Source: Rhodamnia argentea (lineage: Eukaryota > Streptophyta > Magnoliopsida > Myrtales > Myrtaceae). From it: a DNA stretch of 64,000 nucleotides. The notes beneath the pieces were generated by a model. That model saw only the letters and a list, made by a program, of their open reading frames with translations, was not told where the DNA came from and did no database searches. Shown one piece after another: positions 4,175 to 60,400 of this stretch (the stretch's first letter is position 1; each line of letters starts with the position of its first letter). The stretch spans positions 27,761,826 through 27,825,825 of the forward strand of contig NC_063150.1 in NCBI RefSeq assembly GCF_020921035.1. The letters run 5' to 3'. A program made the position numbers and the translations under genes.

Positions 4175-4205
<31 letters not shown>

Positions 4206-4237: not shown

Positions 4238-6960
4238 ATGGCTTCCTCCGAGCTCACTCACCGGAACCAATCCCATCTGCCTCACCCATCTCCTCCTCCC
4301 CCGCCGCTCTCTCCCGGAACCACGTCCACGTCTCGCTCCCAGCTCATGGCCGCCGCGCTGCACCGCCTCCTCTTCGTCTTCCTCGGCATCGGCATCGCCA
4401 CCCTCTCCTTCCACGCGCTCCTCCCCAAGCGCTACTCTCCTCCTCCGCCGCTGCCGACGCCGCTGCTGCTGCGTCACCCGCACGTCGCCGTCGCCTCCGA
4501 GGTGCCCCACCGCCGCGTCCTGTACGAGGCGGCGGGCATGGGCATGACGAGCGCGGGGGGGAAGGTGCCGCTGGGGCTGAAGAGGAAAGGGCTGAGGATC
4601 GTGGTGACGGGCGGGGCAGGGTTCGTGGGGAGCCACCTGGTGGACCGGCTGATGGCGCGGGGGGACAGCGTGATCGTGGTGGACAACTTCTTCACGGGGC
4701 GGAAGGAGAACGTGGCGCACCACTTCGGGAACCCGCGGTTCGAGCTCATCCGGCACGACGTGGTCGAGCCCATCCTCCTGGAGGTGGACCAGATCTACCA
4801 CCTCGCCTGCCCGGCATCCCCCGTCCACTACAAGTTCAACCCCGTCAAGACCATCATATCCTTTCTTCTTCCCATTATCTTTTCTTTCTTTCTTTCTTTT
4901 CTTACTGCAACCCTAATGCAGCAGCATTATATTCCTGAGGATGAGATCTAGATGGGTACATATTAACAAGAATTAAGATTGTTAAAATTTAGAACTTTTT
5001 GTGGAAGGTCAAACTGGTGGGGTTTGTTTCCTTAATTCGAAGTGATGCTTTTTTTTTTTTTTGGTCTTCACAAGACGAATGTGGTGGGAACGCTAAACAT
5101 GTTGGGGTTGGCAAAGAGGGTCGGGGCACGTTTCTTGCTCACCAGCACCAGCGAGGTTTATGGCGATCCCCTTCAGCACCCCCAGGTCGAGACCTACTGG
5201 GGTAACGTCAACCCCATCGGTCAGTCTCTCTCTCTCTCTTTCTCTAAAAGATGTGCACAAATTATTCTGGTTAGGTTAGCTGTACTAGACACTTGCGTTA
5301 TCACGTGTGATTCAGTTGAAATTCCTTCGACAATGGTGCGAGACCCGCATCGTCATCTGAAGGTGATCAAACGGGCGGGCTTGGGTGATGTTTAAAAGCC
5401 GGCGGCCCGCCGAGCCTGAGGTTGAATACGTCGATTTTTCATGATATGGGTGGACTTGGGCAATACAATAGGTCCGACCTTCGGACTTGGCCCGCGCCAG
5501 CGATGATCGCTTCTAATAAGGACCACCACACTTTTGTGCATCGAACATCTAGCTAATGTCTAGATGACATTCAATCTAATGGGACCTATGCGAGCTCCAT
5601 TGGACAATGTTTTAGGTGCCTGGTGCATTTGATCCAAAGCCCACCGGTAGCTCCATCATGAATGAGATCTGTTCATATGGATATTTGGGTGGTTGCAGGC
5701 GTGAGGAGCTGTTACGATGAGGGGAAGCGCACGGCGGAGACTCTCACCATGGACTATCACAGAGGTCTGGCAATTGAGGTACGAAAATCAAATCCATTGA
5801 AAAGGAGTTGCTGCGATCGGAACGTGGAATCAAAGTGACGGTCGGAAGTCGCGTGCAGGTGAGGATCGCTCGGATTTTCAACACCTACGGGCCCCGTATG
5901 TGCCTCGACGACGGCCGCGTCGTGAGCAATTTCGTCGCTCAGGTACGGGTCTCTCTTTCGTCCTGGCACAGAGAGTGGTGCAGGATCAGTACAGTCAAAA
6001 TGAAAATTGGACTCTAGGAGTTGGATCTCTTCTCATAATATGATGTTGGCGATCGAAACAGGCTTTGCGGAAAGAGCCTCTGACTGTTTACGGCGATGGG
6101 AAGCAAACCAGGAGCTTCCAGTACGTTTCCGACCTGGTACGTGCTAGTTTCTTCGTCTACCATTATCGAGCTAAATCACGTGCGAATTTTGCATCATAAT
6201 AGCCTTCTATCTTTTTCTGTTCTGTGTTCAGGTGGAGGGCCTGATGAGGCTGATGGAAGGCGATCACATCGGTCCCTTCAACCTCGGAAATCCCGGCGAA
6301 TTCACCATGCTCGAACTTGCCAAGGTAAAATCGAATTTGTATGCTTAGGTTTAAGCACCAGTGCTTTGTTAAATCGCTCTTCCGAAACCGTCCTTTAATC
6401 TGGTTTCCGATATTAGTCCTTGTCACATCAAAGAGGTGATCATCTGGATGAAAGTTATCATGGACCAATGCAGCTTCCATATGGCGCTCCACAACGGAGC
6501 GACCCTTCGTTTCGGCTCCAACTTGTTGCCCGAGCCTGCATATATAGAGAAAAACGCTTAGTATTTCCTTGAATCGGGCGGCTATAATCGAGCCAGACCG
6601 CGCTTTACAACCAGAGCCCTGCCCAAGTTTATCCTCGAGCCAATTTGGTTCGAATGGGTCTTGGCGCGATGATAAGCCACCAGCCCCTACCTTTTTCCAA
6701 ATTAGTCAACGTGTTAATGTTGGGTGCAGGTGGTACAAGAGACAATAGACCCGAATGCAAGAATAGAGTTCAGACCGAACACGGCGGATGATCCCCACAA
6801 GAGGAAGCCCGACATCTCCAAGGCGAAGGAGCTCCTTGGCTGGGAGCCCACGATCTCGCTCCGCCAGGGCCTCCCGCTCATGGTCTCCGACTTCCGGCAG
6901 CGCATCTTCGGCGACCAGAAGAGCACCGAGGCCTCCGATTCTGCCACCATATCGGCGTGA
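4238..6960 (+). CDS. UXS: UDP-glucuronate decarboxylase (UDP-xylose synthase), membrane-anchored type
   Basis: Seven exons give 442 residues: 4238-4855, 5072-5219, 5699-5778, 5859-5942, 6062-6136, 6232-6324, 6730-6960. The enzyme decarboxylates UDP-glucuronate to UDP-xylose using bound NAD, supplying xylan and xyloglucan synthesis. A Pro-rich N-terminus, one hydrophobic segment (about residues 38-62) and a second Pro-rich stem indicate the Golgi type II membrane class (UXS2/UXS4-like), not the cytosolic class. The Rossmann glycines GGAGFVG are at 125-131, the substrate motif [10 protein letters not shown] follows, and the catalytic YxxxK is Y261/K265 in [19 protein letters not shown] and [15 protein letters not shown] are typical. 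The ATG at 4238 is the only in-frame ATG, since the open frame upstream has none. Intron 1 (4856-5071) has AT-AC ends; all others are GT-AG, including a very short 80-base third intron. Exon joins and length agree with the family (about 445 aa). Confidence 0.95.
4856..5071 (+). other. U12-type AT-AC intron in UXS
   Basis: The intron begins ATATCCTTTC and ends CTTCAC. The donor matches the U12 consensus RTATCCTTT at all nine positions. A perfect U12 branch-site match, TTCCTTAAT, lies at 5028-5036. Joining ACC ATC (end of exon 1) to AAG ACG AAT restores the invariant family sequence [13 protein letters not shown] in frame. No GT donor exists near the end of exon 1, and using the AG at 5073-5074 as acceptor would delete the conserved lysine. 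The branch A to acceptor distance (about 36 nt) is long for this class because a 15-base T run lies between them. Confidence 0.88.
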
Positions 6961-10529: not shown

Positions 10530-11097
10530 CCATGTCATATAGACATCTCTTGTGAGCAACGCTTGCTATTAAATGAAAAACAACATTTCCCAGAAAGAGA
10601 AAACTCTTTAGATGTAATTGCCTCGAGCCTTTGTACCAAAAACAAAACTGCTAAATAGGATTTTCCACAAACTAGTGAATAACAACACTGTGCAATTGAT
10701 TTTAATTTTGACATTTTACAAAGACCTTTTCGTAAACATTCGAGTACAATGTAGGATACAACTGTAGTCTACTTGCAACTTGAACACAAAATAACATCTG
10801 AGACATGTATGCTATATTGGTACAGTTTATTACTAAGACAGATTTACTCGCGAAATTAGTAATCTTCAAATCTCATTCTGCAATCCTTAAGTTGAACTTG
10901 AGCACCTCAACTCCGACCGCATTCGTCGTTGACATGAGATGCAGCTTGCTTCAAGCACTCACCGCAATCAGATTGTGTCAATGCCCCGGTGCACACTCCA
11001 TGGCCCTAACAGTCCCAATACCCAGTGTAATAATTGTAACCTTCTTTTGGTGTCTTATCACATATGTCATTCAAAACAAAATCGTTGTAAAGGCCAT
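10530..11097. repeat. Segmental duplication, copy A (DUF26 gene body and 3' flank)
   Basis: Aligns collinearly with 15,597-16,195. Shared landmarks include TTAAATGAAAAACAACATT, GATGTAATTGCCTC, CAATTGATTT and the gnk2-domain coding region read on the minus strand. The homology continues from the 3' flank into the coding region and ends inside the 5' half of the gene in the second copy. Confidence 0.8.
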
Positions 11098-11251
11098 TGC
11101 CCTCTAGCGGAGCGTACTGCCTTCCACTGCATATATGATAAACCTCTAGTAAGTCAGCAGTACATCTTATAATATTGCTGGAGCAAAACAACCATATGAT
11201 GAAGAGTGTCACCATATGTGGCAATGTGTTCATGATTTGACTCTCTACCAT
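10856..11251 (-). pseudogene. Gnk2/DUF26 secreted cysteine-rich protein, pseudogene copy 1
   Basis: Read from ATG 11251, the frame gives a hydrophobic signal peptide (LFIIWLFCSS), then YHICSGRQYAPLE, NDICDK and YNYYTGYWDC. The core motif C-x8-C-x2-C (CTGALTQSDCGEC) and CRMRFEDY follow in the same frame. Intact members are secreted ginkbilobin-like proteins with antifungal or mannose-binding activity, or ectodomains of cysteine-rich receptor-like kinases. The frame is interrupted by TAG at 11006-11008 (where copy 3 has Tyr) and TGA at 10907-10909 (after ECGRS). A TAA at 10856-10858 is close to the natural end. There are no frameshifts, so decay looks recent. A TATA-like TATATAAG lies about 40 bases upstream of the ATG. 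Copy 3 at 15.9 kb is its duplicate. Confidence 0.82.
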
Positions 11252-15596: not shown

Positions 15597-16195
15597 TATT
15601 AGATATTTTTCCATAGGCACATAGAAGTCTCTCCTGAGCAACACTTGATATTTAATGAAAAACGACATTCTCCAAAAAAATAAAACTCTCTCGATGTAAT
15701 TGCCTCAAGCCTTTCTACCAAAAACCAAACTGCTAGACATGATATTTCACAGGCCAGTGAATAATAACGCTTGTGCAATTGATTTAACTTTGACATTTTA
15801 CTAGTCCTTTACGTAAACACGCGAGTACCACGTAGGATACAACTGTAGTGTGCTTGCAACATGAACACAGAATAGGATATGAGACATATATGCTTTATTG
15901 GCACAGTTTATTACTGAGATGGACGTGATGTGTATGACTTACTCGCTAAGTACGTAATCTTCAATTCTCATTTTGCAATCTTTAAGTTGACCTTGAGCAC
16001 CTCGACTCTGATCGTATTCTTCGACGAGACGAGATGCAGCTTGGTTCAAGCTCTCACCACTATCAAATTGTGTCAATGCCGCATTATGCACTCCATGGCC
16101 ATAACAGTCCGAGAACCTAGTGTAATAATTGTAACCATAGTTTGGTGTCTGATCACATATATCCTTCAAAACAACATCTTTGTAAAGGCCATAGT
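15597..16195. repeat. Segmental duplication, copy B (DUF26 gene body and 3' flank)
   Basis: Second copy of the segment at 10,530-11,097, in the same orientation. Homology stops near 16,195-16,205, inside the 5' half of the coding region. Confidence 0.8.
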
Positions 16196-16205
16196 CCTCC
16201 GAAAT
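15939..16205 (-). pseudogene. Gnk2/DUF26 pseudogene copy 3, 5'-truncated
   Basis: The frame reads DYGLYKDVVLKDICDQ, YNYYTRFSDCYGHGVHNA and GAQGQLKDCKMRIEDY, clearly collinear with copy 1. It has no in-frame stops within the body, but the diagnostic cysteines are gone: the C-x8-C-x2-C motif is now H-x8-S-x2-S, and the next Cys is Tyr (VEEYDQS). The signal peptide and first conserved block are missing because homology breaks off at about 16,205. With its disulfide framework lost and its start removed, this copy should be non-functional, although the frame is still open. This is the reverse of copy 1, which keeps its cysteines but has stops. Confidence 0.78.
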
Positions 16206-26680: not shown

Positions 26681-28009
26681 TTACTCCATTTTGCCTTCCC
26701 ACACTTTGGCTGCCTGTGATCTTGCTGGGTTTATGCACCTCCACATGGCACTATTGCACTTAAACCCACTCCCTAAGGCAATCTGCCATATCCTATCCCC
26801 CTCTTTTACTCTCCCTTTGGCTTCTGCGTAAGCAAGCTCATACCAGATGGATGAAGCTGAGGTGTTCCCAAACTTGTATAGAGTCATCTTCGATGCTTCC
26901 AGATCTTCTTCACCCAACTTCAAGTTCTTTCCGATCGCTTCTATGACGGATTTCCCTCCGGCATGTATGCAGAAGTGCTCGAAAGCTCTCCTGAAATTCG
27001 GTATGTAAATCTCTGTTTTCCTCCTGGTACTGAGCTTTCGCTTGATAATGGACAATGCGTACTGGAACTGCTCTGTGTAAGGCAGAACCAGAGGGCCTAA
27101 GGAAGCCATGTTTGCTTTTAGTGCTTCCCCAGCAACAGTCACAATGCTCTTGGATATCGACACCCCAAGTTCGTTCTCGGAGTCCACATCCTGGTACACG
27201 CATGCATAAGATTGATCGTCATGAGCTCTGGTCGTTCGGACAATGTGTTGAAGCTCATACTTGGCCGCCTTCTTGTCTTGGTCTCGGCTCGACATGAGCA
27301 GCGCCGCGCTTCCCATTCGGAAGAGACAATTGGATATCAACATGGATGTGTTCTTACCCTTGTACCAGTTCATGCTGAGAATCTCGGTGCTTATGATAAG
27401 GGCCAAGGAGTTCCTGTGAACCCTCAACAGGTCTTGTGCCAGGCCTACGGACACGACACCGGCGCTGCACCCCATGCCAGAGAGGTTATAGCTTTGGATA
27501 TTGCTCCTCATTCCGAACTTGTTCACCACCATGGCAGTTAGAGACGGCGTGGGACAAAACATAGTACTGTTGCAAATCAATATGTCTATGCTTCTAGGGC
27601 TAACGTTGTTCTTCCTCAGCAACCCATGTACAACGGGGAAAATGACCGTCTCGGCTTCCTCTAGGCCAGAAGAAAGTGATTTTGTTATGGGTAACTCGGC
27701 AATCGATGCGGGAATGCTGGTCTCTTCGCTGAACCCTGCCTTCTCGAAGATCTTGCTTAGGAAAGCTTTGCTCTTTTGATCGACCTTTTCGTCGAGAAAA
27801 AGATGCTCCTGGAACATGCACTTAGGTAGCCGACAAGAATCGGGCGGCCTATAGCAATTGAAGTCCAGTAAAAAGACTGAGGCTTTTCTTTTACTAACAA
27901 GGAAGACGACAGCCACAAGACCGAGCATCACCAATGGAAAATGGCGATGGGCGAATGCGAGAACAAAATCCAGTAAACTGAACACATGTAGTGATGATGC
28001 CATGGTCAT
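26681..28009 (-). CDS. KCS: 3-ketoacyl-CoA synthase (fatty acid elongase condensing enzyme)
   Basis: A single-exon frame of 442 residues. KCS enzymes condense malonyl-CoA with long-chain acyl-CoA in the ER, the first step in making very-long-chain fatty acids for waxes, suberin and sphingolipids. N-terminal hydrophobic segments are at about 8-38. The FAE1/Type III PKS-like domain starts around LDFNCYRPP, and an ICNSTMFCPTPSLTAMVVN block follows. Catalytic residues fit the FAE1 spacing exactly: Cys181 in NLSGMGCSAG, His349 in HFCIHAGGK and Asn382 in FGNTSASS. WYKGKNTSMLISNCLFRMG and GFKCNSAMWRC are also present. It is slightly shorter than most family members (about 460-520 aa), mainly at the N-terminus, where one transmembrane segment may be missing. 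Met3 (28003) is an alternative start. Subfamily is not assigned. Confidence 0.93.
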   Translation of the reverse strand: MTMASSLHVFSLLDFVLAFAHRHFPLVMLGLVAVVFLVSKRKASVFLLDFNCYRPPDSCRLPKCMFQEHLFLDEKVDQKSKAFLSKIFEKAGFSEETSIPASIAELPITKSLSSGLEEAETVIFPVVHGLLRKNNVSPRSIDILICNSTMFCPTPSLTAMVVNKFGMRSNIQSYNLSGMGCSAGVVSVGLAQDLLRVHRNSLALIISTEILSMNWYKGKNTSMLISNCLFRMGSAALLMSSRDQDKKAAKYELQHIVRTTRAHDDQSYACVYQDVDSENELGVSISKSIVTVAGEALKANMASLGPLVLPYTEQFQYALSIIKRKLSTRRKTEIYIPNFRRAFEHFCIHAGGKSVIEAIGKNLKLGEEDLEASKMTLYKFGNTSASSIWYELAYAEAKGRVKEGDRIWQIALGSGFKCNSAMWRCINPARSQAAKVWEGKME

Positions 28010-57490: not shown

Positions 57491-60400
57491 ATGAGCGCCT
57501 CCGAGCCTGCGGCGGCCAAACCCTCGTCGGCCTCCGCCGGCTGCAATATCACCGTCAAGAGCACCGACATGAAGGACGAACTGCAGAAGGAGGTCTTCGC
57601 CATCTCAAAAGCCGTAATCCCCCCTTATCTGTCTTCTTCCTCTCTCTAATTCGTCTTGTCTATTTGGTGGATCACCCTCCAGTTGGTTGTCTATTATTTG
57701 GCCATGAGGTTTCTATGTTGTACGATTCTGAAGCTGATTGGCCCTTTTTTTTTTTTTTTTTTTTTTGGGTGGGGGTGATAGGCATTCGAGAAGCACTGTG
57801 TAGAGAAGGACGTCGCCGAGTATATCAAGAAGGAGTTCGACAAGAAGCATGGATGCACCTGGCATTGCATCGTCGGTCGCAACTTCGGTAAATCCCATAT
57901 GCTGTTCCTGTGCTTCTTGCCATATTAGCAAGTTTCTGATGCGGATTAGGCGTGGTCTACGGCATTCACTGAGTACGGGGTAGATCTGGTCTTTGGTGCG
58001 GTCTCTACCATCGTATCACATAGTTTCGTGTCTCTTCATTACTTTCACGGTTGCTGCTGCTAATTTACTTATTCGTAAGCGATTTGTCTTTGTGGCTATG
58101 TGATTATTCTTCTCCACAATATGACTATGTGGAAACGATTCCTTTTGCTGACAATGGAGTGATAGGACATTCCACTTTGCTGGTCAATAAATCACTTAGT
58201 ATTTCGAAACGGAATCCAGATTCCAGGTCATCAATATAAGCTCTCTAATGATCAGTGATGGCGGTGTTGGTAGACATAATAGTGAATGATGTTCTCTTGT
58301 TATATGGTAGTTTGAAGAAAAGGTTGAATAGATGTCAAAAGATTTATATGAGGTTCTCTCTCAGTGGAAGAATCCTTGGCCAGGAGCATCGGTAATCAAA
58401 TGATACATTTCATAATTTGCTTAACTGACTTAATTGTTTTGATGTGCGTGTACTAATACTTCATCAGTCGTGGGAAGAGACCATTTGCTTTGTTGCTGAT
58501 ACTGGACTAATGATAATTCAACGTAAGATTGCCTCCACAAATTCCTGCTTTTCTGTGTACTAGCTGGATTCCACTAATCAATAGGTGATGGTTCCTAGAT
58601 CGACGCTAGCTTGAGAGTCTGTGATCTACTTAGAACAGATTACGCATCATAGTTCTATTAGAAGAAGGAAAGGACACGAAACGAGAACTAGTTAGCGCAT
58701 GTTTAAAAGAAGGGATTCAGTGAGGTTAGAAAATGACTGTAATTCTCCCCAGTTAAATTATGCTTGATTAGTTCTTCAATAGAATTGGACTAGGAGCTCG
58801 TCAAACTTTGTCGAACTCTCAAGCCCCTTGCCTTAAACATAGGAGCCAGCGGCAGCTTGATTGAATCAATTCCATGGTTGACTTGTTTGTCCTTGTCTAT
58901 ATATTACTGCAGTATCTCAATTGGATCTCAACTCCTTGGTCTGTCAAGGGGCTGTTGGCAGCATGTCTTGAACTTGAGGGGTGATTATTTGCCTTTGTTT
59001 CTCGAAAATTATATGGTAGTCTGATATGTTGTTAATGGTGAGAAATTTGAACCCTGGAGCATCTGTGTACCTTGCTTTCATGCATTGGTTTAAATGTCTA
59101 TCAAGCTCATACCATAGGCTTGATTTTTCAAAGTGATGCTGCTATAGTGATGAGGATAAGGTCTCGTGTCCTGGCATCATCTAATTTGAAGAAATTATAG
59201 AGCCATATTGGTTGAATGTTGGAACATGTAGAGTACTACAGTATTTGAATCCTCCACATTTCCTAAGTCTCCGCATGTGTACTTTTCGTTAGTTTATTTT
59301 GAGTTATCTATCCATGATTAATCATAGTCATCCTTGTATAATAGGCATCTGAAATAAGTGTTATTGGAATGCCCAATAATATTGTTACTGTTAGAACTTT
59401 CAACAAGTGGAAGGATCTTACTGGTTCTGTTGCCTGCATGGCCCATATTGTTTTTCTTTGCAGCAGGATTAACTTAAATTACCAGCTGGTTGTGCCTTTT
59501 TCCTTTAGACCATTTTGTGGCCCTTCTGTGTAAGAGGATAAAAGTACAGTTAAAATGTCATATTCCTTCGATCTGATGCTAATGATGTATAAGTCGGCTG
59601 CTCAGAAAATTCTTGAGATGTACTTTTTTGGTATCAATTTGAATGCTTCATATGTAAGCGCCAACTGCAAGCCAACTTGGGTAGCAAGTGACACGATAAG
59701 CAAGTAACAAGGTTATCATTTTCTTGCTATTTGTGATTGAACTAACTTATGAAGTGTTAGATATTGGGATGACTAAGTGTTCTTGGCAGTATAAAGCTTC
59801 TATTCACTTAGAATTTGGGGGTCAGGAACCTTTGTGATAATCATTTATTCTCTTTTAGATTTCTTGATCTTATGGACTATGCATGGGTTGGCAACCTCTG
59901 TGTACAAAGTACATATCAAATCTTGTCACCTTAATAATAAATGTCTATAATTGCTCACCTTTTGACTACGAACGGCGAGCCATTTACTTTTGCTTGAGCT
60001 GTGATGAGACAGGTCATACTCCAGGGTATTTGGAGGTGCATGTACCCCAGTACTATTAAACATGAGAGAAGAAGCGCATCGGCTAGCTCCTATGGAATTA
60101 CTTGAACAACATTATATTTAGCAACTGCTTATCTTAATATCCTTTTGAATTCTCAAATTGATTGCCACGTATGCATAGCTGATAATCCACAAACACAGTT
60201 GAAATTTATTCACTCCTCCTTTACTTGGGTGGAATCATTGCCATTAGGTAGGTAGGTAGGTAGGTAGGATATTGATAGGGAATATATAGACGTTTTTCTG
60301 GGCATGATGCAAGTCTTCGGTTGACTTGCCTGAAGTTCTACTTTGAATCAGTTAATCAAGACCATCATCATGTTGGTGCGTGAGGGGTGACTTTGAACAT

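Follow-up and report, generated by a model that had tools for sequence, protein, structure and literature searches.

The first intron of a predicted UDP-xylose synthase (UXS) gene of Rhodamnia argentea is, judging from sequence comparison, very probably a genuine U12-dependent AT-AC intron that was inherited from before the UXS duplications of its group, uses the AC at position 5071 as its 3′ splice site and gained, in this copy, an additional stretch between the branch site and the acceptor. UXS is a cell-wall sugar enzyme in plants, and AT-AC introns, which are cut by the minor spliceosome, are rare. The gene is located on the plus strand at positions 4238-6960 of the window, i.e., the whole 64,000-nt stretch of DNA that was analysed (C1:27761826-27825825), and the genome searched comprised 346.7 Mb in 74 contigs.

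The UXS gene and its product

The gene consists of seven exons, all on the plus strand: exon 1 (4238..4855, 618 nt, with a phase-0 end, ...NPVKTI), exon 2 (5072..5219, 148 nt, beginning with AAG and equal in length in the paralogs L173 and L174), exon 3 (5699..5778), exon 4 (5859..5942), exon 5 (6062..6136), exon 6 (6232..6324) and exon 7 with the stop (6730..6960). Removal of intron 1 (4856-5071) and of introns 2-6, all of which are GT-AG, gives a product of 442 aa, whose N-terminal hydrophobic segment, encoded by exon 1, was judged by eye in the translation. The gene is predicted to encode a UXS because the sequence of its catalytic domain matches that of solved UXS. The best solved relative of the product is human UXS1 (UDP-glucuronate decarboxylase 1, 2b69; 447 bits), and the alignment is gapless across residues 117-425, including the exon 1/exon 2 junction, while the top-scoring solved chain without a UXS name reached 148 bits. 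None of the best 25 of the 29 matched NCBIfam models reached its cut-off (0/25), because this library was made for prokaryotes. Additionally, a TC repeat of 15.5 copies is located at 4175-4205, within the presumed 5′ leader of the gene, and the start of intron 2 is CT-rich both in this copy and in L173.

The exon 1/exon 2 junction

Intron 1 (4856..5071, plus strand) is a 216-nt, phase-0, U12-type AT-AC intron by its sequence, joining ATC to AAG. We enumerated the possible junctions by combining GT, GC or AT donors at 4780-4999 with AG or AC acceptors, for introns longer than 50 nt that end no farther than 5159 and leave an in-frame, stop-free product. Among the 120 pairs so obtained, only AT 4856 - AC 5071 yields the full-length, gap-free family sequence with NPVKTIKTNV, and no listed GT-AG or GC-AG pair gives a full-length protein. 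With the donor at 4856, the AC at 5070..5071 is the sole listed acceptor that keeps both the conserved lysine and the full length. This junction was compared with the best 80 bacterial and the best 80 viral UXS relatives, taken from scans of at least 593 and 310, respectively. The AAG codon at 5072-5074, which the initial annotation had placed at the start of exon 2, encodes a conserved lysine, which is kept in 155 of these 160 relatives (78/80 bacterial and 77/80 viral). The junction region is without gaps in all 160; the T preceding the I of TIK is likewise kept in 160/160, while the I itself varies (40/160).

The conserved lysine separates the AC acceptor at 5071 from an alternative AG at 5073..5074 (+), three bases beyond the AC, whose use would delete the lysine of TIKTNV. 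Another AG, at 5041..5042 (+), ends 7 nt beyond the second branch A, and its use would place a TGA directly after exon 1, stopping translation at codon 207. There is no AC or AG within 5043-5069; therefore, if the AG at 5042 is skipped, the next acceptor is 5071. If intron 1 were retained, translation would stop within it, at codon 238.

U12-type signals of intron 1

The 5′ splice site of intron 1, ATATCCTTTC (4856..4865, +), matches ATATCCTTT with 0 mismatches, which is the RTATCCTT criterion for a U12-type intron; the consensus is printed as RTATCCTTT in PMC2846911. The branch site, TTCCTTAAT (5028..5036, +, i.e., -44 to -36 relative to the intron end), fits the consensus UCCUUAAC, or TTCCTTRAY, with 0 mismatches when C or T is allowed at the last place, the candidate branch A being 5034 or 5035. 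Both consensus sequences were taken from PMC2846911 and PMC8199999. The best other branch-site match of intron 1 has 3 mismatches.

With both strands counted, the window contains a single exact donor that is followed on its own strand, 40-1000 nt downstream, by an exact TTCCTTAAY; 200 dinucleotide shuffles of the window gave 0.015 such combinations on average. An exact branch site within the last 60 nt was found in 22 of 5000 shuffled introns. Two further ATATCCTTT sites are present in the window, at 60137 (+) and 25525 (-), a number easily reached by chance (1.07 per window on average in shuffles, both strands), and neither of them is followed by TCCTTRAY within 220 nt. The genome also carries a predicted U12 snRNA gene, which scores 87.3 bits, above the family cut-off, with matches in none of 14 control genomes, and which contains GTAAGGAA, complementary to the branch site of intron 1.

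The initial annotation had described a U12-dependent AT-AC intron with this donor, branch-site match and AC acceptor, whose removal restores TIKTNV, and each of these elements was found where it had been placed. The U12-dependent AT-AC identity of the intron is well supported by the consensus matches, the restored protein, the AT-AC introns at the same position in two paralogs and the predicted U12 snRNA gene.

Intron 1 in the paralogs of the same group

Six further UXS loci (L173-L178) were compared; these were the best candidates, weaker matches of 26-34% identity being left out, and the UXS locus counts are thus lower bounds. Over the compared exons, of which exons 1 and 7 were only partly included, 279 of 301 residues in L173 and 268 of 301 in L174 are identical to those of the window gene. 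In both paralogs, intron 1 lies at the same codon boundary as in the window gene, ATC|AAG, in phase 0. The intron of L173 (ATATCCTTCC ... TCCTTAAT ... TTAC) is an AT-AC intron of 134 nt with a branch-to-acceptor spacing of 14 nt, and that of L174 (ATATCCTTGT ... TCCTTAAC ... ATAC) is an AT-AC intron of 159 nt with a spacing of 12 nt. Against the consensus, each of the two introns shows a single mismatch in the donor (9 nt) and a single one in the branch site (9 nt), and none in the 8-nt TCCTTRAY core. The three introns are thus alike in their boundary, phase, AT-AC ends and U12-type donor and branch site, whereas those of the paralogs are shorter, more closely spaced and, unlike the window copy, without a T run of 8 or more in the last 40 nt.

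The synonymous divergence between the window gene and L173 is approximately 1.29 (Nei-Gojobori), and it is saturated with L174, indicating that the U12 signals have outlived much of the neutral similarity. Since its boundary, AT-AC ends and U12-type signals recur in two paralogs, intron 1 appears to be an old shared trait, and the U12 intron itself does not single out the window gene. We take L174 to belong to the UXS1 class and the window gene and L173 to the UXS2/4 class. Rice genes have been reported to fall in both UXS classes (PMC3629030); thus, the intron may be older than the monocot-dicot split.

Branch-to-acceptor spacing and the T run

In the window copy, 36 nt separate the second branch-site A (5035) from the last intron base. 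This lengthened branch-to-acceptor stretch (5037..5071, +) includes a run of 14 T at 5049..5062 (+), a homopolymer length that comes from a single assembly and may be off by some bases. The reported distance has an optimum of 11-13 nt and is usually 10-20 nt (PMC3584512, PMC8199999); the latter range, which is usual rather than defining for U12-type introns, is exceeded in the window copy and includes the values of L173 and L174. Judged against these published reviews and the two paralogs, the branch site is indeed unusually distant, as had initially been proposed, and the predicted long spacing is peculiar to the window copy among the three UXS genes sharing the intron. All spacings were measured directly on the sequences; a MAFFT alignment of the three introns sets the branch sites one column apart. 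The accompanying proposal that the distance arose by expansion of the T tract holds in part: the T run is the main component of the extra spacing, but it provides only 14 of the 22-24 nt by which the window copy exceeds its paralogs, the rest being 8-10 other bases.

Two ways in which the effective distance could be shorter were rejected. A nearer branch site was ruled out, with no candidate of fewer than 3 mismatches starting in the last 40 nt. A distance-shortening hairpin was also discarded: the 5036-5071 segment folds no better than its shuffles (-2.6 kcal/mol, z -0.06; 80 of 200 shuffles fold at least as well), two longer stretches gave z values of -0.11 and +1.13, and the acceptor itself would be paired in the predicted stem.

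The search range of U12-intron detectors matters for a branch site located this far upstream. A detector scanning from -40 to -5 (PMC2846911) would miss it, while intronIC, with its range of -55 to -5 (PMC7367187), would catch it. Gene finders that accept only GT-AG introns would probably misplace the junction of intron 1 or drop a codon. Together, three paralogs with one U12 intron and spacings of 12, 14 and 36 nt offer a natural series for the effect of distance on minor splicing in a plant.

Proposed origin and splicing of intron 1

According to the explanation that we favour, intron 1 would have been inherited as a U12-dependent AT-AC intron from before the duplications that produced the UXS genes of this group. 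In minor-spliceosome splicing, U11 and U6atac would recognise ATATCCTTT, the U12 snRNA would pair with the branch site TTCCTTAAT, and the AC at 5071 would be used as acceptor, so that ATC is followed directly by AAG and TIKTNV is restored. A stretch including the 14 T would have been gained between the branch site and the acceptor in the window copy, rather than lost in both of the others, moving the AC from approximately 12-14 to 36 nt. The AC at 5071 is probably still used, since no other AC or AG intervenes after the AG ending 7 nt beyond the branch site, and the window intron is probably spliced somewhat less efficiently than those of the paralogs. The points against this explanation are the GT-AG introns reported for Populus (PMC3629030), the suboptimal distance of 36 nt, and the single donor and single branch-site mismatches in each paralog.

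If the same U12 intron were spliced from its donor at 4856 with an AG as the principal acceptor, one lysine would be lost (5074) or an immediate stop would make the transcript unproductive (5042). One of these AGs is only 3 nt beyond the AC, and the other, ending 7 nt beyond the second branch A and leading to a stop at codon 207, is far nearer to the branch site than the AC is. Nevertheless, we consider it improbable that either AG is the main acceptor: AT-AG pairs are reported to be disfavoured in U12 introns (PMC3584512), the lysine that would be lost at 5074 is the one kept in 155/160 relatives, a distance of 7 nt is below the usual range (PMC8199999), and the introns of L173 and L174 both end in AC. 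It is extremely unlikely that intron 1 is of the U2 type, spliced by the major spliceosome either as a GT-AG intron with other boundaries or as an AT-AC intron with the T tract acting as the polypyrimidine tract. The T tract does resemble a polypyrimidine tract, the other UXS group of the same genome has a nearby GT-AG intron, and only GT-AG introns are reported for the UXS family in Populus (PMC3629030). Nevertheless, the enumerated GT-AG and GC-AG pairs fail to give the full-length protein, the donor is an exact U12 consensus whose pairing with an exact branch site is found once against 0.015 expected, and U12-type signals are also kept in two paralogs that lack the T tract.

The remaining readings accept the U12 type of the intron and concern the consequences of its lengthened stretch. 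A decaying gene copy, in which this stretch already impairs splicing, is compatible with the favoured explanation as to intron type and would be in line with the suboptimal spacing and with the stop at codon 238 that a retained intron would bring. We consider it very unlikely, given that the 442-aa frame is open and that the nonsynonymous divergence from L173 is 0.045 versus a synonymous divergence of 1.29 over the 301 compared codons, from which we infer that the UXS protein has been under constraint. The change in spacing could nevertheless be recent despite this constraint. Alternatively, the gained stretch might have made a formerly constitutive U12 intron switch between 3′ splice sites: the AG at 5042 would lead to the immediate stop and the distant AC at 5071 to the enzyme, and the proportion of productive transcripts of this UXS isoform could then depend on the length of the T tract or on a protein that binds the U tract. 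This reading is decidedly improbable. The favoured explanation, a U12-dependent AT-AC intron spliced to 5071, is compared with published introns below.

Relation to published U12-type introns and UXS genes

According to the table in PMC7367187, 13-26% of U12-type introns are AT-AC in the four plant genomes that it covers. The window intron resembles such plant introns in its exact 5′ splice site, exact branch site and AC end, and differs from them in its 36-nt spacing, compared with the usual 10-20 nt (PMC8199999). Its T run also departs from the description of U12 introns as having no distinct polypyrimidine tract (PMC3584512). Many minor introns have been reported to be spliced about twofold slower (PMC8199999). 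In the initial annotation, removal of intron 1 was suggested as a possible limit on UXS output and the T tract as a possible modulator of it; both effects are hypothetical.

The literature searched, which did not extend to the main Arabidopsis U12 catalogue and supplementary tables, yielded no report of a UXS gene with a U12 intron; UXS terms were not found in the U12 papers PMC2831892 (UDP, dTDP), PMC2426677 and PMC4892727. It is quite possible that a UXS U12 intron has previously been listed in a database. What is new here is that two further UXS genes of the same group are predicted to carry AT-AC introns of the U12 type at the ATC|AAG boundary.

In Populus tomentosa, where cloned cDNAs were compared with genomic clones, GT-AG ends are reported for every intron of the seven UXS genes (PMC3629030). 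In Table 3 of that article, exon 2 of PtUXS1 is 145 nt, compared with 148 nt in the window gene, L173 and L174, a difference of 3 nt, or one codon less. Such a difference would arise if the Populus boundary had been set after AAG to obtain an AG, or if the intron truly lies one codon downstream. The gene models of PMC3629030 may thus contain a mis-set exon 2 boundary or reflect a real difference.

The other UXS group

In the loci L175, L176, L177 and L178, which we take to be the cytosolic-type UXS group, a GT-AG intron separates VK from TIK (VK|TIK) at a point 6 nt upstream of where the AT-AC intron lies (TI|K). In gene-oriented coordinates, with L176-L178 reverse-complemented, the exon end and next exon start are 1869/1985 in L175, 1766/2377 in L176, 2545/2709 in L177 and 2439/2607 in L178. 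Their donors are GTGCTT, GTGATT and GTGTGT, none of which is U12-like. Like intron 1 of the window gene, this intron splits the same conserved motif between codons; unlike it, it lies 6 nt upstream, has GT-AG ends and lacks a U12-like donor. It may be an independent intron or the result of a U12-to-U2 change through a splice-site shift. A change of this kind has been reported once, between Trichinella spiralis and Caenorhabditis elegans (PMC2846911). The two cases are alike in that one gene has an AT-AC U12 intron and its relative a U2 intron at a distance of a few codons; they differ in that the nematode case is between species, whereas a change here would have taken place between paralogous gene groups.

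Within this group, L177 (C8:14.84 Mb) and L178 (C8:18.66 Mb) are 99.4% identical over 5.4 kb and are located approximately 3.8 Mb apart on one contig, reflecting either a recent duplication or an assembly artefact.

Other features of the window

The minus strand at 26681-28009 contains a single open frame of 442 aa with a match to the FAE1/CUT1 family (PF08392, 394 bits), which is presumably a 3-ketoacyl-CoA synthase; the seven other window open frames submitted alongside it had no Pfam match. An exact 90-bp tandem duplication is present at 1098-1277, and direct repeats that are 83-85% alike, perhaps remnants of a mobile element, are located at 10722-11104 and 15803-16199, approximately 5.1 kb apart.
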